Shown: piece by piece, positions 12,390 through 18,867 of the stretch | Layout of the letters: the number at the start of each line of letters is the position of its first letter | Position numbering within the stretch: the first letter of the stretch is position 1 | Assembly (NCBI GenBank): GCA_030153605.1 | Contig: JASKLO010000013.1 | Location: 1 to 39,839, forward strand | Reading direction: 5' to 3' | Source of the DNA: Thermosipho sp. (in: thermotogales) | GTDB lineage: Bacteria > Thermotogota > Thermotogae > Thermotogales > Fervidobacteriaceae | DNA: 39,839 nucleotides | Position numbers and translations under genes: made by a program | Notes under the pieces: generated by a model | Databases searched by the model: none | The model's input: only the letters and a program-made list of their open reading frames with translations | Told to the model about the DNA's origin: nothing

Positions 12390-13526
12390 TCACTTAATTA
12401 AAGATAAGAAAATTCCAGCAGCTACAGCTGAGCCAATAACACCTGCTACATTAGGACTCATTGCATGCATTAAAATGAAATTACTTGGATCTTCTTCTTG
12501 TGCAATTCTTTGAGCCACTCTAGCAGAATCTGGAACGGCTGAAACACCTGCTGCTCCAATCAAAGGATTAATTTTGTCTTTTAAAAATAGGTTTAGAAAT
12601 TTTGCAAATAAAATTCCTGAGGTAATAGCAGAAATAAACGCAAAAGCACCCATACCAAATATAAGTAAAGATTTTGGAGTTAAAAATAAATCAGCTCTTG
12701 CAGTAGAACCTACAGAAACACAAAGAAGAATAGTGACAGTATCTAATATGTATCTACTTGAAGCTTCAACTAGTCTCTTAACTACACCAGATTCTTTTAG
12801 CAAATTTCCAAACATTAACATTCCAATTAATGGAAGCGCTTTTGGAACAATAAAAGCAACGACTAATGTTGTAATTATTGGAAATAAAATTTTTTCTTTC
12901 TTTGAAACTTTTCTTGGAGGTTTCATTCTAATTTTTCTTTCTTCTTTTGTAGTTAAAAGTTTAGAAACAATAGGTTGTAAAACAGGAATAAGTGCAATAT
13001 ATGAGTAAGCAGAAATAGCGATTATTGACAATAATTCAGGAGAGAATTTTGATGAAATAAAAATTGATGTGGGCCCATCGGCACCACCAATTATTCCAAT
13101 AGAAGCAGCTTGCTTAAGAGAAAATCCAAAAAATCTTGCAAATATAAAAGTAAGGAAAATACCTAGTTGAGCAGCTCCACCTAAAAAAATAGTTAGTGGA
13201 TTTGATAACATAAATGAAAAATCGGTTAAGGCACCTAGTCCGAGGAATATTAAAGGAGGATAGATTCCTAAATTTAAGCCTTGTTGAATGTACCATAAAA
13301 GACCACCTGGATGACCATTAGAAGGGGGATTTAGAATCCCAGTTATGTCTGGTGGAATATTTGCTAGTATTATTCCGAATGCTATGGGAATTAATAATAG
13401 GGGCTCAGCATCTTTTTCAATAGCTATATATATTAACAAGCCTGCTACTACAAACATTAATAAATTTCCAAATGTTAAATGCATAAATGCAGTATTTTCG
13501 AAAAATGCTGTTAGTGCAGATATCAA
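12390..13526 (-). CDS. oadB: Sodium-translocating decarboxylase, beta subunit (OadB-like)
   Basis: The 378-residue polytopic protein belongs to the beta subunits of Na+-transporting oxaloacetate, methylmalonyl-CoA and glutaconyl-CoA decarboxylases, which couple decarboxylation of carboxybiotin to Na+ export. The invariant GGADGPTSI near residues 147-155 carries the Asp needed for Na+ movement, and the C-terminal GAAGVSAVPDSARVAQ segment is typical. The start is a TTG at 13526, six to seven bases after AAGGAGG. No alpha (biotin carboxyltransferase), biotin carrier or gamma subunit is in the window. It heads the operon with the kor genes, suggesting joint control of ferredoxin and Na+ energetics. 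Confidence 0.93.
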   Translation of the reverse strand: MISALTAFFENTAFMHLTFGNLLMFVVAGLLIYIAIEKDAEPLLLIPIAFGIILANIPPDITGILNPPSNGHPGGLLWYIQQGLNLGIYPPLIFLGLGALTDFSFMLSNPLTIFLGGAAQLGIFLTFIFARFFGFSLKQAASIGIIGGADGPTSIFISSKFSPELLSIIAISAYSYIALIPVLQPIVSKLLTTKEERKIRMKPPRKVSKKEKILFPIITTLVVAFIVPKALPLIGMLMFGNLLKESGVVKRLVEASSRYILDTVTILLCVSVGSTARADLFLTPKSLLIFGMGAFAFISAITSGILFAKFLNLFLKDKINPLIGAAGVSAVPDSARVAQRIAQEEDPSNFILMHAMSPNVAGVIGSAVAAGIFLSLIK

Positions 13527-13619: not shown

Positions 13620-14456
13620 CTAATCTTTTTTGATAGAATCGTTTAAACTGAATAAAATATAGTAATACGTTAATTCATAATTATAATTAGCTTTTTTTGA
13701 AGAACTAATTTTTTCAATGTCTTTTATTGAGTTATAATCAACATTTTGAAAATAAGAAAATTCTTCAGCAATCCAAAGTGAAACTTTAGAAATTGTTTTT
13801 AAAAAATCAAAATCTTTTATTTTAGAAAACGAATTGGCTATACTGTTTAATTTTTTTAAATCACCAATACTATCTTTGATAGAATGATAAATTGTATAAA
13901 AAACATTAAAAATATCTTTTTCTTTATGAAGTTTATCAAGCTCTATTACCTTAAAATCCTTGTTTTTAAGTTCTTCTACTTTGTCAGGGAAAGTCCAAAT
14001 CAGTTTTTTTAAAAAGAAATTATCAATGTTTTTAAATAAATCATTCGGAATGTTTAAGTTGAATCTAAAGACTCTACTTTTAATTGTAGAAAAAAGTGCA
14101 TTCCAATTAGTTGTTACAAGAATAATAATTGCATAATCAGGCGGTTCTTCTAAAGTTTTTAAAAGAGCATTTTCAGCTTCAGGTAGAAGTTTTTCTGCAT
14201 TAAATATAACAGCAAATTTTGTTCCTTTATCTGGACTGAATGATAAAAAATCTTGAATATTTCTTACATCATCAATTTTAATATTTGGAGATTCTTCAGT
14301 GTCAACGAAAAGATATTTATCAATTTCAGAAGAGGTAATATCTAAGATTATATATTTAATAGTATCTTTTAAAAATCTATCATTATCTCCTACAATAGCA
14401 ATAGAGATACCTTTAGAATTCATTAAAATATTTTTAATAAATTTTGCTTGTTCCAT
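13620..14456 (-). CDS. DNA polymerase III delta-prime-like protein (HolB-like)
   Basis: This is a 278-residue protein with the clamp-loader delta-prime pattern. It has a degenerate nucleotide-binding start (IVGDNDRF), FAVIFNAEKLLPEAENALLKTLEEPP near residues 94-119 (quoted in part: ENALLKTLEEPP) and TTNWNALFSTIKSRVFRF near 129. The usual SRC is SRV here. There is no zinc-binding cysteine cluster and no intact Walker A, consistent with a delta-prime (non-ATPase) role in loading the sliding clamp. The ATG at 14456 follows GAAGGTGA. The gene overlaps the ABC ATPase by 23 bases. A diverged paralogue of tau/gamma is an alternative. Confidence 0.8.
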   Translation of the reverse strand: MEQAKFIKNILMNSKGISIAIVGDNDRFLKDTIKYIILDITSSEIDKYLFVDTEESPNIKIDDVRNIQDFLSFSPDKGTKFAVIFNAEKLLPEAENALLKTLEEPPDYAIIILVTTNWNALFSTIKSRVFRFNLNIPNDLFKNIDNFFLKKLIWTFPDKVEELKNKDFKVIELDKLHKEKDIFNVFYTIYHSIKDSIGDLKKLNSIANSFSKIKDFDFLKTISKVSLWIAEEFSYFQNVDYNSIKDIEKISSSKKANYNYELTYYYILFSLNDSIKKD

Positions 14457-15144
14457 GAAAGTCACCTTCTTTATTGTAGAACCTTCTTACAAAATCAAGG
14501 TAATTATTAATTTTTCCATCAAATATTATTTTTCCATTGCTTAAAAATATTATTCTATCAGAAATTTCTAAAAACAAATCCACATGATGTGTTGCGATAA
14601 TAATGCCAATATCAAGTTTTTTAAGTTCATGTATAAGATTTTTAATAATTTTTCTATCATGTTTGTCAAGCATTGCAGTGGGTTCATCAAGAAGTAAAAA
14701 CGAAGGTTCCATTGATAAAATTGAAGCTATTGCAAGCTTTTGTTTTTGCCCTCCTGATAGATTTAAAGGGTCAGTATCTTTTATGTTGTAAAGTCCAACA
14801 ATTTTTAAAGCTTTTTCAGCTCTTTTTTTAATTTCTTGTCTATTCAAACCAATATTTTCAAGCCCAAAAATAACATCTTCCCAAACAGTGCTTCCAATTA
14901 TTTGAGTTTCAGGATTTTGAAATACGTAACCAGTAACTAAATATGGGTCTTCACCATTTGATGTAAAAATTTTACCACTGTAATTTTGCAAACCTGCTAG
15001 TGATTTTAAAAAAGATGATTTACCGCTTCCATTGCGGCCTAATAATAATACGATTTCATCTGTATTAAAAGATACTGAAATTGAATCTAATATTACTTTG
15101 TCATCAATTTTTACAGTAAGATTTTCAGTAATAAGCTTTATAAT
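14434..15144 (-). CDS. ECF/CbiO-type ABC transporter ATPase with a non-canonical start codon
   Basis: A complete ABC ATPase of about 236 residues is encoded: Walker A GRNGSGKSS, Q-loop VFQNPETQ, signature LSGGQKQK, Walker B FLLLDEP and switch ATHHV. The sequence is closest in style to EcfA/CbiO. The frame is open back to a TGA just upstream, but contains no ATG, GTG or TTG before a TTG at 14991, which lies after Walker A. GGAG at 15150-15153 is followed after five bases by ATT (15144) and after eight by ATA (15141), which overlaps the upstream stop as ATAA. I infer initiation at ATT or ATA, coupled to the SAM hydrolase gene. No EcfT or substrate-binding S component is in the window, so it probably serves ECF modules encoded elsewhere. 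Confidence 0.8.
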   Translation of the reverse strand: MIKLITENLTVKIDDKVILDSISVSFNTDEIVLLLGRNGSGKSSFLKSLAGLQNYSGKIFTSNGEDPYLVTGYVFQNPETQIIGSTVWEDVIFGLENIGLNRQEIKKRAEKALKIVGLYNIKDTDPLNLSGGQKQKLAIASILSMEPSFLLLDEPTAMLDKHDRKIIKNLIHELKKLDIGIIIATHHVDLFLEISDRIIFLSNGKIIFDGKINNYLDFVRRFYNKEGDFHGTSKIY

Positions 15145-15896
15145 ATCAACTCCAGAGGATCACCGGAATTTAAATTCAATTTTTTTGAAGCATTTCCTTG
15201 GTTTATAGCTATTTCTAAAAAACCTGTACTATCATTATGTGCCAACAATTGACCTGTTTCAGTTTCTGAATAAAAATTAACAATTGGAATTTCAATTAAT
15301 TTTCTTTTATTTTTTATCTTTATAAAATCTAAATCTTTAAGCCATTCAAAAGGGATGTTAGTTTCAATGTTGCCAAATTTATCTATGTATGCTACTTCTC
15401 CAAAAATTGATTTTGAATCTTTTTTAGGCTTAATATATGGAATGGTTGCATAATTTGGAAGCAAATCCCCTAATTTTTTAAAATTACCGTTTGTAATATG
15501 GGCTGCAGCTGGTGCAAAAATATCTCTTCCATGAAAAGTGTTTGAATCTAAATAATGAAATTTTTTGTTATTCAGCTCTCGTATTTCTAAAGGAGGTTCT
15601 TCTTCAAATACAAGGGTAAATAATCCATTATCAGGGCCTACAAAATAATAATTTTTGGTTTTTGCAGCAATTGCTTTTCTACTACCACCAACACCATAAT
15701 CGACAACAGCAAGAAATACAGTATTTTTAGGAAAATGATAGAAAGATCTAGAAAGTATATACATAGCTTCTCTCACATTAAATGAGGTAATTTCATGTGT
15801 CAGGTCTATTATTTCAGAATCACTAATTTGTCTTATCACACCTTTACAAATCCCTACATAATGTGAATTACCCCAATCTGTTAGGAATACTATCAT
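15138..15896 (-). CDS. SAM hydroxide adenosyltransferase (SAM hydrolase, DUF62)
   Basis: This 252-residue protein belongs to the DUF62 family related to fluorinase and chlorinase, whose common members split S-adenosylmethionine to adenosine and methionine using water. Expected motifs are present: TDWG near residues 6-9 (Asp), DLTHEI near 31-36, VDYGVGGSRK near 65-74 (most members have VDPGVG), GPDNGLFT near 88 and TFHGRDIFAPAAAH near 119-132. It lies nine bases after the phosphofructokinase-like gene and its stop overlaps the inferred start of the ABC ATPase. The operon link to an ECF-type ATPase may point to adenosine- or methionine-related transport; that is inference. Confidence 0.92.
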   Translation of the reverse strand: MIVFLTDWGNSHYVGICKGVIRQISDSEIIDLTHEITSFNVREAMYILSRSFYHFPKNTVFLAVVDYGVGGSRKAIAAKTKNYYFVGPDNGLFTLVFEEEPPLEIRELNNKKFHYLDSNTFHGRDIFAPAAAHITNGNFKKLGDLLPNYATIPYIKPKKDSKSIFGEVAYIDKFGNIETNIPFEWLKDLDFIKIKNKRKLIEIPIVNFYSETETGQLLAHNDSTGFLEIAINQGNASKKLNLNSGDPLELIL

Positions 15897-15905
15897 AGTT
15901 TCACC

Positions 15906-16916
15906 TTAATAAAAAAGTTTGGTAAGATTTTTTAAATAATATTCTGCTGGTTTGTAATTTATAATAGTTTCTGAATATGGGACCTCTGTAATTGAAAAAC
16001 CAGTAATTCCAATTGCATGATAATTCCTACCAGCTTTAACCATTTCCATTGAATGTGCAGCCATTTGAGTTGCAATGATCCTATCCATTGCAGAAGGCGA
16101 GCCACCTCTTTGTAAATATCCTAAATTTGTGTATCTCCATTCAATTCCTAATGATTCTTTTAGATTTTTTTCTATATATTTACCAATTATTTCTGAAGAA
16201 TTGTTCAAATTAGTACAGCCACATTCTTTTTTTATTTCTTCAGGAATTGGAACGCCACTTTCAACTACTATTAAAGAAAATCTTTTCTTTCCCTCATATC
16301 TTTTCTTAATTATTTCAAGCATTTCATCAAAATTTATTTTTTCTACGGAAGTTATAATATAATCAGCACCACCAGCAAGTCCTCCAACTGTGGCAATCCA
16401 ACCACTTGGTTTTCCCATTGTTTCTACAATCATTACTCTGTGATGAGCTTCTGCTGTTGAATGAAGAATATCAAGTGCGTTAGTTACATGTTGTACAGCG
16501 GTAAAAAATCCTATAGAAAAATCAGAAAAGGGTAGATCATTATCAATTGTTGCCGGGATTAGAATAGAAGGTATATCTTTTTTCATTAGATTTAAAGCAG
16601 CTTTAGCTGCTATTCTTCCTCCAAGTAAAATTAAAGTGGAGATACTATATTGCTCAACTTTTTGTTTGATAATTTCTAATTCTTTTTCTTCGGGAACAAA
16701 TAGAGATGTACCAAGTATTGTTCCACCTTTATGTAAGATATTTGAAACATCAGGCCTTAAGAGAACATCAAGTTCATCATTAATTAACCCTTCAAAACCA
16801 TCTTTAATTCCCATTACTTCTATGTTTAAATCTAATCCTTTTACAACAGCAGAACGTATAGCTGCATTAATACCAGGAGAATCATTACCGACACATAAAA
16901 TTCCTACTCTCTTCAT
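15906..16916 (-). CDS. Divergent phosphofructokinase-family protein
   Basis: This 336-residue protein aligns end to end with bacterial ATP-PFK. The catalytic TIDND is intact (residues 123-127, base D125). The fructose-6-phosphate residues are kept (R160 in HHRVMIVE, E219 in VVES, R261 and R270 in LGYLQRGGSP), except that His249 of E. coli PfkA is Tyr. The phosphoryl-donor side is not kept: the GGDGS loop reads GGRIA (R101 at the Mg2+-binding Asp103 position), E. coli Arg72 is Leu72, and the N-terminal GGD is GND. PPi-type GGDD and K-TIDND are also absent. It may be a paralogue with a different donor, a regulatory protein, or a weak enzyme. It lies one base after hppA, which hydrolyses PPi. 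Alignment was from memory of E. coli PfkA. Confidence 0.85.
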   Translation of the reverse strand: MKRVGILCVGNDSPGINAAIRSAVVKGLDLNIEVMGIKDGFEGLINDELDVLLRPDVSNILHKGGTILGTSLFVPEEKELEIIKQKVEQYSISTLILLGGRIAAKAALNLMKKDIPSILIPATIDNDLPFSDFSIGFFTAVQHVTNALDILHSTAEAHHRVMIVETMGKPSGWIATVGGLAGGADYIITSVEKINFDEMLEIIKKRYEGKKRFSLIVVESGVPIPEEIKKECGCTNLNNSSEIIGKYIEKNLKESLGIEWRYTNLGYLQRGGSPSAMDRIIATQMAAHSMEMVKAGRNYHAIGITGFSITEVPYSETIINYKPAEYYLKNLTKLFY

Positions 16917-16917
16917 A

Positions 16918-18867
16918 TTAAAACCTCCCTATAACAGTAAGTAAAACTATAGAAGTAATTGCCATAAGTTTGATAAGGATATTTATAGAGGGTCCTGATG
17001 TATCTTTATATGGATCACCAACGGTATCACCGACAACGGTAGCTTTGTGTGCGAATGATCCTTTCCCGCCATAATGTCCTTCTTCAATATATTTTTTGGC
17101 ATTGTCCCAAGCTCCACCAGAATTTGCCATAAAAATTGCAAGCATTACTCCTGAAACAGTTGCTCCAATTAATAATCCTGCAACACCAGTTGTTCCAAAG
17201 AAAAAATATATTACAACAGGCGAAAGAATAGCAAGTAAAGATGGAAGAACCATCTTTTTTAAAGCACCCTTTGTTGCTATTTGAATACATTTTTGATAAT
17301 CAGGTTTGCTTTCACCAATCAAGATTCCAGGAATTTCTTTTAATTGTCTTCTTATTTCATTAACCATTTCATCAGCTGCATCACCAACTGCATGCATTGT
17401 TAAAGCTGAAAAGAAAAACGGCAACATCGCACCGATTATTGCTCCCAAAAATAAATATGGATTCGAAAGAAGTATAGAATCAGAATTTGAAATATTACTA
17501 AAATTAGAAAATAATGCTAAAGCAGTTAGAGCAGCTGAACCAATTGCAAATCCTTTTCCCATTGCTGCAGTAGTATTTCCAACAGCATCTAAAGTATCAG
17601 TTATTTTTCTAACTTTTGGGTCTAATTCAGCCATTTGAGCAATACCGCCAGCATTATCAGCAATAGGACCATATGCATCTACTGATAAACTAATTCCTAA
17701 TGTTGAAAGCATTCCAACACCTGCTAAAGCTACGCCAAATAAACCAAGGAGTTTATAAGACAATATAACTGCAAACGAAATTAAAATTGTAATAACAAAA
17801 GTTGATTCCATTCCTAAGGCTGTTCCGCTGATAATAACATTGGCAGGTCCCATAACAGCACTTTTGGCAAGATTTTTAATTTTGTTTCCCGAAGTATACC
17901 ATTCTGTTATAAAACCAATTGATACACCAACAATTATTCCAAATAAAACAACAAAAAATAATTGGACCCACGAAATATAAACACTATAAATTAAAGTAAA
18001 AATTAAAGTTAGAATACTAGCTATTACTGTTCCTAGCCTGAGTGTTTTAGCTGGATCAGAAGATTTTTTAGAATTTAAAATTGTATAAATAATACCTATT
18101 ATAGAAGAAATTAAACCAAAAATTACAACATATACTACAGCAAAAAAACCTTTTTCTTTAAAGTGAAAACTTCCTAAAGCGAGAGCGGAAAAAATTGAAC
18201 CTACATAAGATTCATATAAATCAGCTCCCATTCCTGCAACATCACCCACATTGTCCCCAACGTTATCAGCTATTACAGCTGGATTTCTAGGATCATCTTC
18301 TGGAAGATTCGCTTCTGTTTTTCCCACTATGTCAGCTCCAACATCAGCAGCTTTAGTATATATACCTCCACCTACTCTAGCAAATAAAGCAACTAATGAT
18401 GCACCTAAAGAATAAAAACTAATTAAACTTATATCTTTTGTAATAAAATAAGTAACACTTAACCCTATGATTCCTAAAGTTGAAACAGTTAAACCCATAA
18501 TTGCGCCACCTGTAAAAGAAACTTTAAGTGCTTCTCCCAAATTTTTAGTAGCTGCCCAAGCAGTCCTGGCATTAGCTTTGGTGGCAATACTCATTCCAAC
18601 ATAACCAGCTAACACTGAAAGAAATGAACCTATAATTAATGCAATGGCTGCCTCTAAATTAAAAAGAATTCCCAAAATAGTAGCAAGTATCAAAACTACT
18701 GGGAAAAAAACTTTGTATTCTTGGAACAAAAAAGACTTTGCGCCTTTTTGAATAATTAGAGAAAGTTCAGTAGTTTTTTCATTTCCTGTAGGATAATCAA
18801 GAATTTTTATAGTCAAATAAATAATAAAAAAGAAAGATATTCCACCAAAAATCAAAAAATAAACCAA
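16918..18867 (-). CDS. hppA: Membrane-bound ion-translocating pyrophosphatase (K+-dependent type)
   Basis: This 649-residue polytopic enzyme hydrolyses PPi and pumps Na+ or H+. The substrate site is complete, including DVGADIVGKTE at about 175-185 and DDPRNPAVIADNVGDNVGD at 191-209. Residues 430-435 read GNTTAA; K+-independent enzymes have Lys in place of the first Ala, so a K+-dependent enzyme is predicted. The Thermotoga maritima homologue is a Na+ pump, so Na+ is likely here too. The start is a TTG at 18867 after GGGAGGT. The ribosome binding site lies inside an unusual set of complementary segments. The phosphofructokinase-like gene follows after one base. Confidence 0.95.
   Translation of the reverse strand: MVYFLIFGGISFFFIIYLTIKILDYPTGNEKTTELSLIIQKGAKSFLFQEYKVFFPVVLILATILGILFNLEAAIALIIGSFLSVLAGYVGMSIATKANARTAWAATKNLGEALKVSFTGGAIMGLTVSTLGIIGLSVTYFITKDISLISFYSLGASLVALFARVGGGIYTKAADVGADIVGKTEANLPEDDPRNPAVIADNVGDNVGDVAGMGADLYESYVGSIFSALALGSFHFKEKGFFAVVYVVIFGLISSIIGIIYTILNSKKSSDPAKTLRLGTVIASILTLIFTLIYSVYISWVQLFFVVLFGIIVGVSIGFITEWYTSGNKIKNLAKSAVMGPANVIISGTALGMESTFVITILISFAVILSYKLLGLFGVALAGVGMLSTLGISLSVDAYGPIADNAGGIAQMAELDPKVRKITDTLDAVGNTTAAMGKGFAIGSAALTALALFSNFSNISNSDSILLSNPYLFLGAIIGAMLPFFFSALTMHAVGDAADEMVNEIRRQLKEIPGILIGESKPDYQKCIQIATKGALKKMVLPSLLAILSPVVIYFFFGTTGVAGLLIGATVSGVMLAIFMANSGGAWDNAKKYIEEGHYGGKGSFAHKATVVGDTVGDPYKDTSGPSINILIKLMAITSIVLLTVIGRF

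Follow-up and report, generated by a model that had tools for sequence, protein, structure and literature searches.

A phosphofructokinase paralogue with a retained sugar site and no recognisable phosphoryl-donor site, linked to one membrane pyrophosphatase subtype in Thermotogota

We describe a family of phosphofructokinase (PFK) paralogues, here called PFKx, in which the sugar-binding half of the active site is kept and the donor half is gone, and which is tied to one subtype of the membrane pyrophosphatase gene hppA across several bacterial families. Phosphofructokinase is a textbook control point of glycolysis. The window, by which we mean the whole stretch of 39,839 nucleotides that was analysed, comes from a 1.69-Mb Thermosipho genome and contains one member of the family. 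A preliminary description of this locus had noticed a retained sugar site, a lost donor site and a neighbouring pyrophosphatase in the single gene; we find this combination to be a property of the whole family of 49 orthologues, 48 of them adjacent to hppA, and the link to the pyrophosphatase is far stronger than had been supposed. The features of the window on which the argument relies are the following.

15906–16916, minus strand: PFKx, a PFK-A family protein of 336 aa without a recognisable phosphoryl-donor site (open reading frame, Pfam, site table, structure model)
16918–18867, minus strand: hppA, membrane pyrophosphatase of 649 aa, the upstream partner of PFKx (open reading frame, profile matches, co-occurrence, adjacency)
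16924–16929, minus strand: GGGAGG ribosome-binding site of PFKx, within the 3' end of hppA (read from the sequence)
16701–16712, minus strand: GTSL motif, residues 69–72, with Leu instead of the Arg72 of ATP- and PPi-PFKs (alignment)
16596–16622, minus strand: former donor loop GGRIAAKAA, residues 99–107, replacing GGDGSxxG or GGDDT (alignment; motifs from PMC11609450)
16536–16556, minus strand: PATIDND, residues 121–127, with the Asp127 and Asp129 equivalents kept and Ala at 124 (alignment)
16437–16439, minus strand: Arg160, equivalent to Arg162 of E. coli PfkA, 6-phosphate binding (alignment)
16107–16136, minus strand: R261YTNLGY267LQR270, equivalent to Arg243, His249 (here Tyr) and Arg252 (alignment)

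A single base separates the hppA stop codon (16920–16918) from the ATG start codon of PFKx (16916), as the preliminary description had stated, and because the ribosome-binding site of PFKx lies inside the 3' end of hppA, the arrangement suggests translational coupling from hppA to PFKx. The same description placed the gene in an operon with a SAM hydrolase. That gene does lie 9 bases downstream of PFKx, but the neighbour is confined to Thermosipho-like genera, and we therefore discard the SAM hydrolase as a general functional partner. A frame encoding a cbiO-like ATPase (14434–15150, minus strand) is open from the point where the SAM hydrolase gene ends. No ATG, GTG or TTG precedes the Walker A motif (GRNGSGKSS) in this frame, and initiation at the listed TTG (14991) would remove that motif; a rare start codon, ATT for example, may be used instead. 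Also on the minus strand, positions 12390–13526 encode OadB (TIGR01109), the beta subunit of a sodium-pumping decarboxylase; since OadB and the pyrophosphatase lie in one gene run in Thermosipho-like genera, two putative ion pumps are clustered there.

PFKx belongs to the PFK-A family by its Pfam match (PF00365; score 296 bits, cut-off 30.9). An AF2 model of the protein (34 sequences; pLDDT 93, pTM 0.90) superposes on the B. stearothermophilus PFK (3pfk) with a VIA-align Z of 42 and an rmsd of 1.4 over 316 residues, and on the E. coli PFK with a Z of 41.6. Judged from the model, PFKx is a protein of ordinary fold and unusual active site. The C-terminal half of human PFKP was considered as its closest relative and rejected, since the top sequence score of that protein adds two halves and structure puts a bacterial PFK first. 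PFKx passes the cut-off of NCBIfam NF002872, ATP-dependent 6-phosphofructokinase (296.5 against 253 bits), so that automatic annotation would call it by that name; its score for the stricter equivalog TIGR02482 falls short (243 against 371 bits), and its sequence gives no support to the name.

Positions are numbered here by alignment to E. coli PfkA, for which the roles of the residues are established; numbers in the window protein differ, R101 for example corresponding to position 103. At the donor site, Arg72 is replaced by L72, Asp103 by R101, Gly104 by I102, Ser105 by A103, and Gly/Lys124 by A122. In addition, Gly11 has become N11, M107 of E. coli has become Lys (K105 in PFKx), G108 has become Ala, and the allosteric arginines of PfkA are partly replaced (R25V, R154H). 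The equivalents of Thr125, Asp127, Asp129, Arg162, Met169, Gly170, Arg243 and Arg252 are kept, and among them are the residues expected of a catalytic PFK (Asp127 and the arginines 162, 243 and 252). Of the catalytic residues that the preliminary description held to be present, these four are indeed there, but its Glu222 is not strictly kept: in a gap-free alignment Glu222 pairs with S220, and a conserved Glu (E219) stands one residue before. Its substitutions at Arg72, Asp103, Gly104 and Ser105 stand. So does His249 to Tyr, but this change belongs to the sugar-phosphate site rather than the donor site, and the PPi-type PFK encoded in the same genome likewise has Tyr at that position.

Published donor motifs are GGDGSxxG for ATP, GGDGSxxI for ADP and GG(D/E)D(S/T) for PPi (PMC11609450), together with P(G/K)TIDXD (PMC12203962); PFKx matches none of them. 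With its loop GGRIAAKAA and its PATIDND, the window protein has neither the ATP-type GGDGS nor the PPi-type GGDD with K-TIDND, exactly as first reported. The ATP motif GGDGSxxG, Gly124 and Arg72 are all missing from the window protein and the 49 orthologues; the ADP motif GGDGSxxI is missing from PFKx as well; and the orthologues have neither GG(D/E)D(S/T) nor the lysine of PKTIDXD, position 104 being L, I, N, H or T and position 124 being Ala. We found no proven PFK with a GGRIA loop, and the published ATP, ADP and PPi motifs carry Asp or Glu at the site of its arginine (PMC11609450).

Orthologues of PFKx occur in 49 of 103 Thermotogota genomes and form one clade with full support in our trees. 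They are distributed over three families, f1 (n=19), f2 (n=10) and f10 (n=20), of which the first two are Fervidobacteriaceae and Pseudothermotoga by their named records, and the third is what we take to be Petrotogaceae, including Marinitoga piezophila and Petrotoga mobilis. In the Thermotoga-like family f3, which includes G031 (presumably T. maritima MSB8), the 103-genome survey found neither PFKx nor the hppA subtype that accompanies it. Thr125, Asp127, Asp129, Arg162, Gly170 and Ala124 are invariant in all 49 orthologues, Arg252 is present in 48/48, and Arg243 in 47/48. Position 103 is Arg throughout f1 and f2 (29/29) and His throughout f10 (20/20); position 72 is Leu (29/29) or Lys (20/20), Lys or Arg stands at 107 in 29/29, and H103-T104-G105 is found in 20/20. 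The loop begins GGR in all f1 and f2 loci except for one RGR (G016), and reads [ST]GHTG in the 12 f10 loci listed. Position 222 is S, D, E or N among the orthologues; in f10 Glu222 is kept, Met169 is changed to Gly or Ala, and Arg171 to Asp. The dN/dS ratio of PFKx, computed with saturated dS, is 0.04–0.09 and similar to that of hppA, and PFKx is under strong purifying selection. Because the donor-site loss is common to all 49 orthologues, the pattern is not due to chance; on these grounds, together with the dN/dS of 0.04–0.09 (saturated dS) and the stop-free reading frames in 49 genomes, we reject both chance and a pseudogene.

The pyrophosphatase of the window matches PF03030 with 847 bits and carries the GNTTAA motif of the K+-dependent type; NCBIfam predicts it to be sodium-translocating, and the glutamate of ADLxESxxG matches the hppA of G031. 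The PFKx-linked hppA is a distinct, short subtype: linked copies are 58–90% identical to the window protein, compared with at most 49% for the other Thermotogota copies examined, and the two classes are also split by bit score (at least 752 for the linked subtype versus at most 590). The genomes with this subtype are the same 49 of 103 that have PFKx, with none discordant, an identity of sets that we do not convert into a probability, since the genomes are related and independent gains or losses are few. PFKx lies directly downstream of hppA on the same strand in 48 of the 49 genomes, and an adjacent, co-oriented hppA-PFK pair is also found in seven genomes of the Caldisericota phylum; in the one exception, G093, the two genes are 890 kb apart. 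The flanking genes differ among f1, f2 and f10, which indicates that the hppA-PFKx pair itself is the kept unit. Protein distances of PFKx and hppA correlate with r 0.95, as is expected of co-inheritance.

Most PFKx genomes hold a second hppA as well. In the window genome this is a longer gene (718 aa, Thermotoga-type, GNTTAA; L165, G000 contig C33 2311–4395). The second copy has an internal stop (TAA) in G016 (contig C1 1629045–1630572) and in G030 (contig C1 2017192–2019105), where it is apparently decaying and the PFKx-linked copy is intact.

The preliminary description had asked whether canonical PFKs exist elsewhere in the genome, and they do: apart from PFKx, the window genome encodes an ATP-PFK (GGEGS), to which PFKx is about 39% identical, and a PPi-PFK (GGNDS, PKTIDND). 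In this ATP-PFK (L001, contig C3) Glu replaces Asp103, and further Thermotogales ATP-PFKs that were inspected (L164, L167) show the same replacement. Every PFKx genome has three or more PFK matches, except for the 60%-complete G019, which has 2. The PPi-PFK family varies by lineage, with types of 401 aa, 425 aa and about 345 aa, and in Pseudothermotoga the PPi-PFK and the ATP-PFK lie about 5 kb and 12 kb from PFKx, respectively.

In our first tree the nearest sister of PFKx is a third PFK from Caldisericota (GDRDT, PKTIDND). Like PFKx, this protein has Arg103 and keeps the catalytic and sugar residues; unlike PFKx, it keeps Arg72, Asp104 and Lys124, and it was not found next to hppA. In the Caldisericota MAG G103 it is located apart from two other PFK genes (L175 and L173), which are directly adjacent to each other (contig C111 1088–2922). 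Searching the GTDB phylum of that MAG, we find that third PFKs form three related groups. Group A has GDRDT and PKTIDND, group B has GDRSA and PNTIDND, and no hppA was seen within the 1.5-kb flanks of either. Group C lies directly behind hppA, by coordinates, in seven genomes; in the four of these whose motifs were read it has GGFTS or GSF[AT]T with PATIDN[DN], and Phe103 in all four proteins examined. The donor-degenerate groups all fall on one side of a branch with 99/93 support, and an AU test of the hppA-linked PFKs as a single clade, that is, of a single origin of the linkage, gives p 0.35. Across the proteins compared from these lineages, Asp127 and the 6-phosphate arginines have persisted, whereas position 103 has changed to Arg, to His or to Phe.

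Two known systems resemble parts of this picture. The C-terminal half of eukaryotic PFK no longer has an ATP pocket, and its former F6P pocket now serves as the effector site for F2,6P2 (PMC12203962). Like PFKx, this regulatory half of PFK-1 has the PFK fold, a lost donor pocket (GGFEA in human PFKP) and a retained fructose-phosphate pocket, and in it activity was lost and an effector role gained (PMC12203962); but it is fused to a catalytic half, has lost the catalytic Asp (PATVSNN) and has no pyrophosphatase link, whereas PFKx is a free-standing single domain of 336 aa, without tandem fusion to a catalytic half, which keeps Asp127 and Asp129. In ammonia-oxidising bacteria, operons of hppA and PPi-PFK are known, in which the pump is proposed to run on PPi released from fructose 1,6-bisphosphate (FBP) (PMC5960693). 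The pairing of hppA with a PFK is therefore of a known kind, a PFK-A gene beside a membrane pyrophosphatase for which PPi coupling has been proposed (PMC5960693); the ammonia-oxidiser enzyme, however, is described as a PPi-PFK, and PFKx is without Asp103, Asp104 and Lys124. The short bacterial ATP-PFKs (PfkA; 3pfk, 1pfk) share with PFKx the fold (Z 42), the chain length, the 6-phosphate arginines and Asp127, but not GGDGSxxG, Arg72, Gly124 or the full set of allosteric arginines. We found no literature on PFKx itself among open-licence papers, and, as far as we could find there, an apparently donor-less PFK paired with hppA is undescribed.

Our tentative reading, which we hold with slightly less than even confidence, is that PFKx is a donor-less, sugar-phosphate-binding partner or regulator of one membrane pyrophosphatase subtype. 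Such a protein would no longer use a nucleotide or pyrophosphate donor, and would be made from the hppA mRNA in a roughly fixed ratio. F6P or FBP, as putative ligands, would be bound in the retained inter-subunit pocket of a presumed oligomer, formed by Arg162 and Arg243 from one subunit and Asp127 and Arg252 from the other. A signal from PFKx would then act on PPi turnover through a presumed contact with the pyrophosphatase or with a PPi-using enzyme, the direction of control being likewise presumed. The closest logic, by analogy, may be that of the C-terminal half of eukaryotic PFK. The preliminary description had suggested another phosphoryl donor, another sugar phosphate, or a regulator that senses fructose phosphates. 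Of these, a regulator or sensor fits best because position 103 varies (Arg, His, Phe) while the sugar-phosphate residues and the hppA link are constant; given an Arg there in 29/29, a His in 20/20 and a Phe in each of the four Caldisericota proteins examined, no single donor chemistry is common to them. The common sugar pocket and pyrophosphatase, the further PFKs elsewhere in the genomes and the purifying selection likewise favour a binding or regulatory role.

To judge from the alignments, the strongest counter-evidence to a regulatory role is the invariance of the catalytic base Asp127 (49/49), which would be unneeded in a pure sensor and which the human half has lost (PATVSNN). The retention of Asp129 in 49/49 would also speak against it, as would the sugar contact at 222, which has not been conserved within the lineage of the window, and adjacency to hppA could stem from a shared metabolite instead. 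Since Asp127 is invariant, an enzymatic role must be weighed: PFKx might combine this base and the sugar site with a remodelled basic donor pocket, made of Arg103 and Lys/Arg107 in the window lineage and of His103-Thr104 in the Petrotogaceae-like one. It might then serve the adjacent pyrophosphatase by catalysing a reaction such as FBP + Pi <-> F6P + PPi, or it might use another small phosphate donor or acceptor. The invariance of Asp127, Asp129 and Thr125, the strict conservation of the pocket within each lineage, a Caldisericota sister that has the PPi-PFK residues Asp104 and Lys124 alongside Arg103, and the ammonia-oxidiser operons (PMC5960693) all argue for such an enzyme. We nevertheless consider it somewhat unlikely, given that all published donor motifs have Asp or Glu at 103 (PMC11609450), that Lys124, Arg72 and Gly104/Asp104 are gone too, that the pocket varies between lineages, and that both an ATP-PFK and a PPi-PFK are already encoded in the window genome. 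The more specific proposal of an active phosphotransferase with a conserved Arg or His in the place of the Asp103 metal ligand, which would run FBP + Pi <-> F6P + PPi, or a reaction of another small phosphate compound, for the co-translated pump, is quite improbable; if true, sugar phosphate would be turned into an ion gradient without ATP.

PFKx could also be a non-catalytic subunit that tunes a catalytic ATP- or PPi-PFK in mixed tetramers, like the hetero-oligomeric PFKs. PFK active sites span subunits, and Arg162 and Arg243 of PFKx would complete the site of a neighbour; moreover, every PFKx genome holds further PFK genes, two of them near PFKx in Pseudothermotoga. The strict link, however, is to hppA rather than to any PFK gene, the potential PPi-PFK partner changes by lineage, PFKx is only about 39% identical to the ATP-PFK, and it keeps its own Asp127/Arg252 side, which would be superfluous in a helper; a subunit of this sort is therefore unlikely. 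That PFKx is an ordinary ATP-dependent phosphofructokinase tolerating an odd loop, as the database name says, agrees with its NF002872 score and its fold, but every donor signature fails, as does TIGR02482, and Leu72, Arg103 and Ala124 are conserved across 29 genomes; we regard this as highly improbable.

PFKx is thus probably either a sensor of sugar or an enzyme with undefined chemistry. As a regulator, it would tie the sugar state of the cell to energy conservation through pyrophosphate, along a route undescribed in bacteria according to the literature found, and its evolution would resemble the way in which the regulatory half of human PFK arose. As an enzyme, it would have to use its donor without any of the published ATP, ADP and PPi motifs. 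Either way, the automatic name of ATP-PFK would mislead metabolic models of thermophiles.
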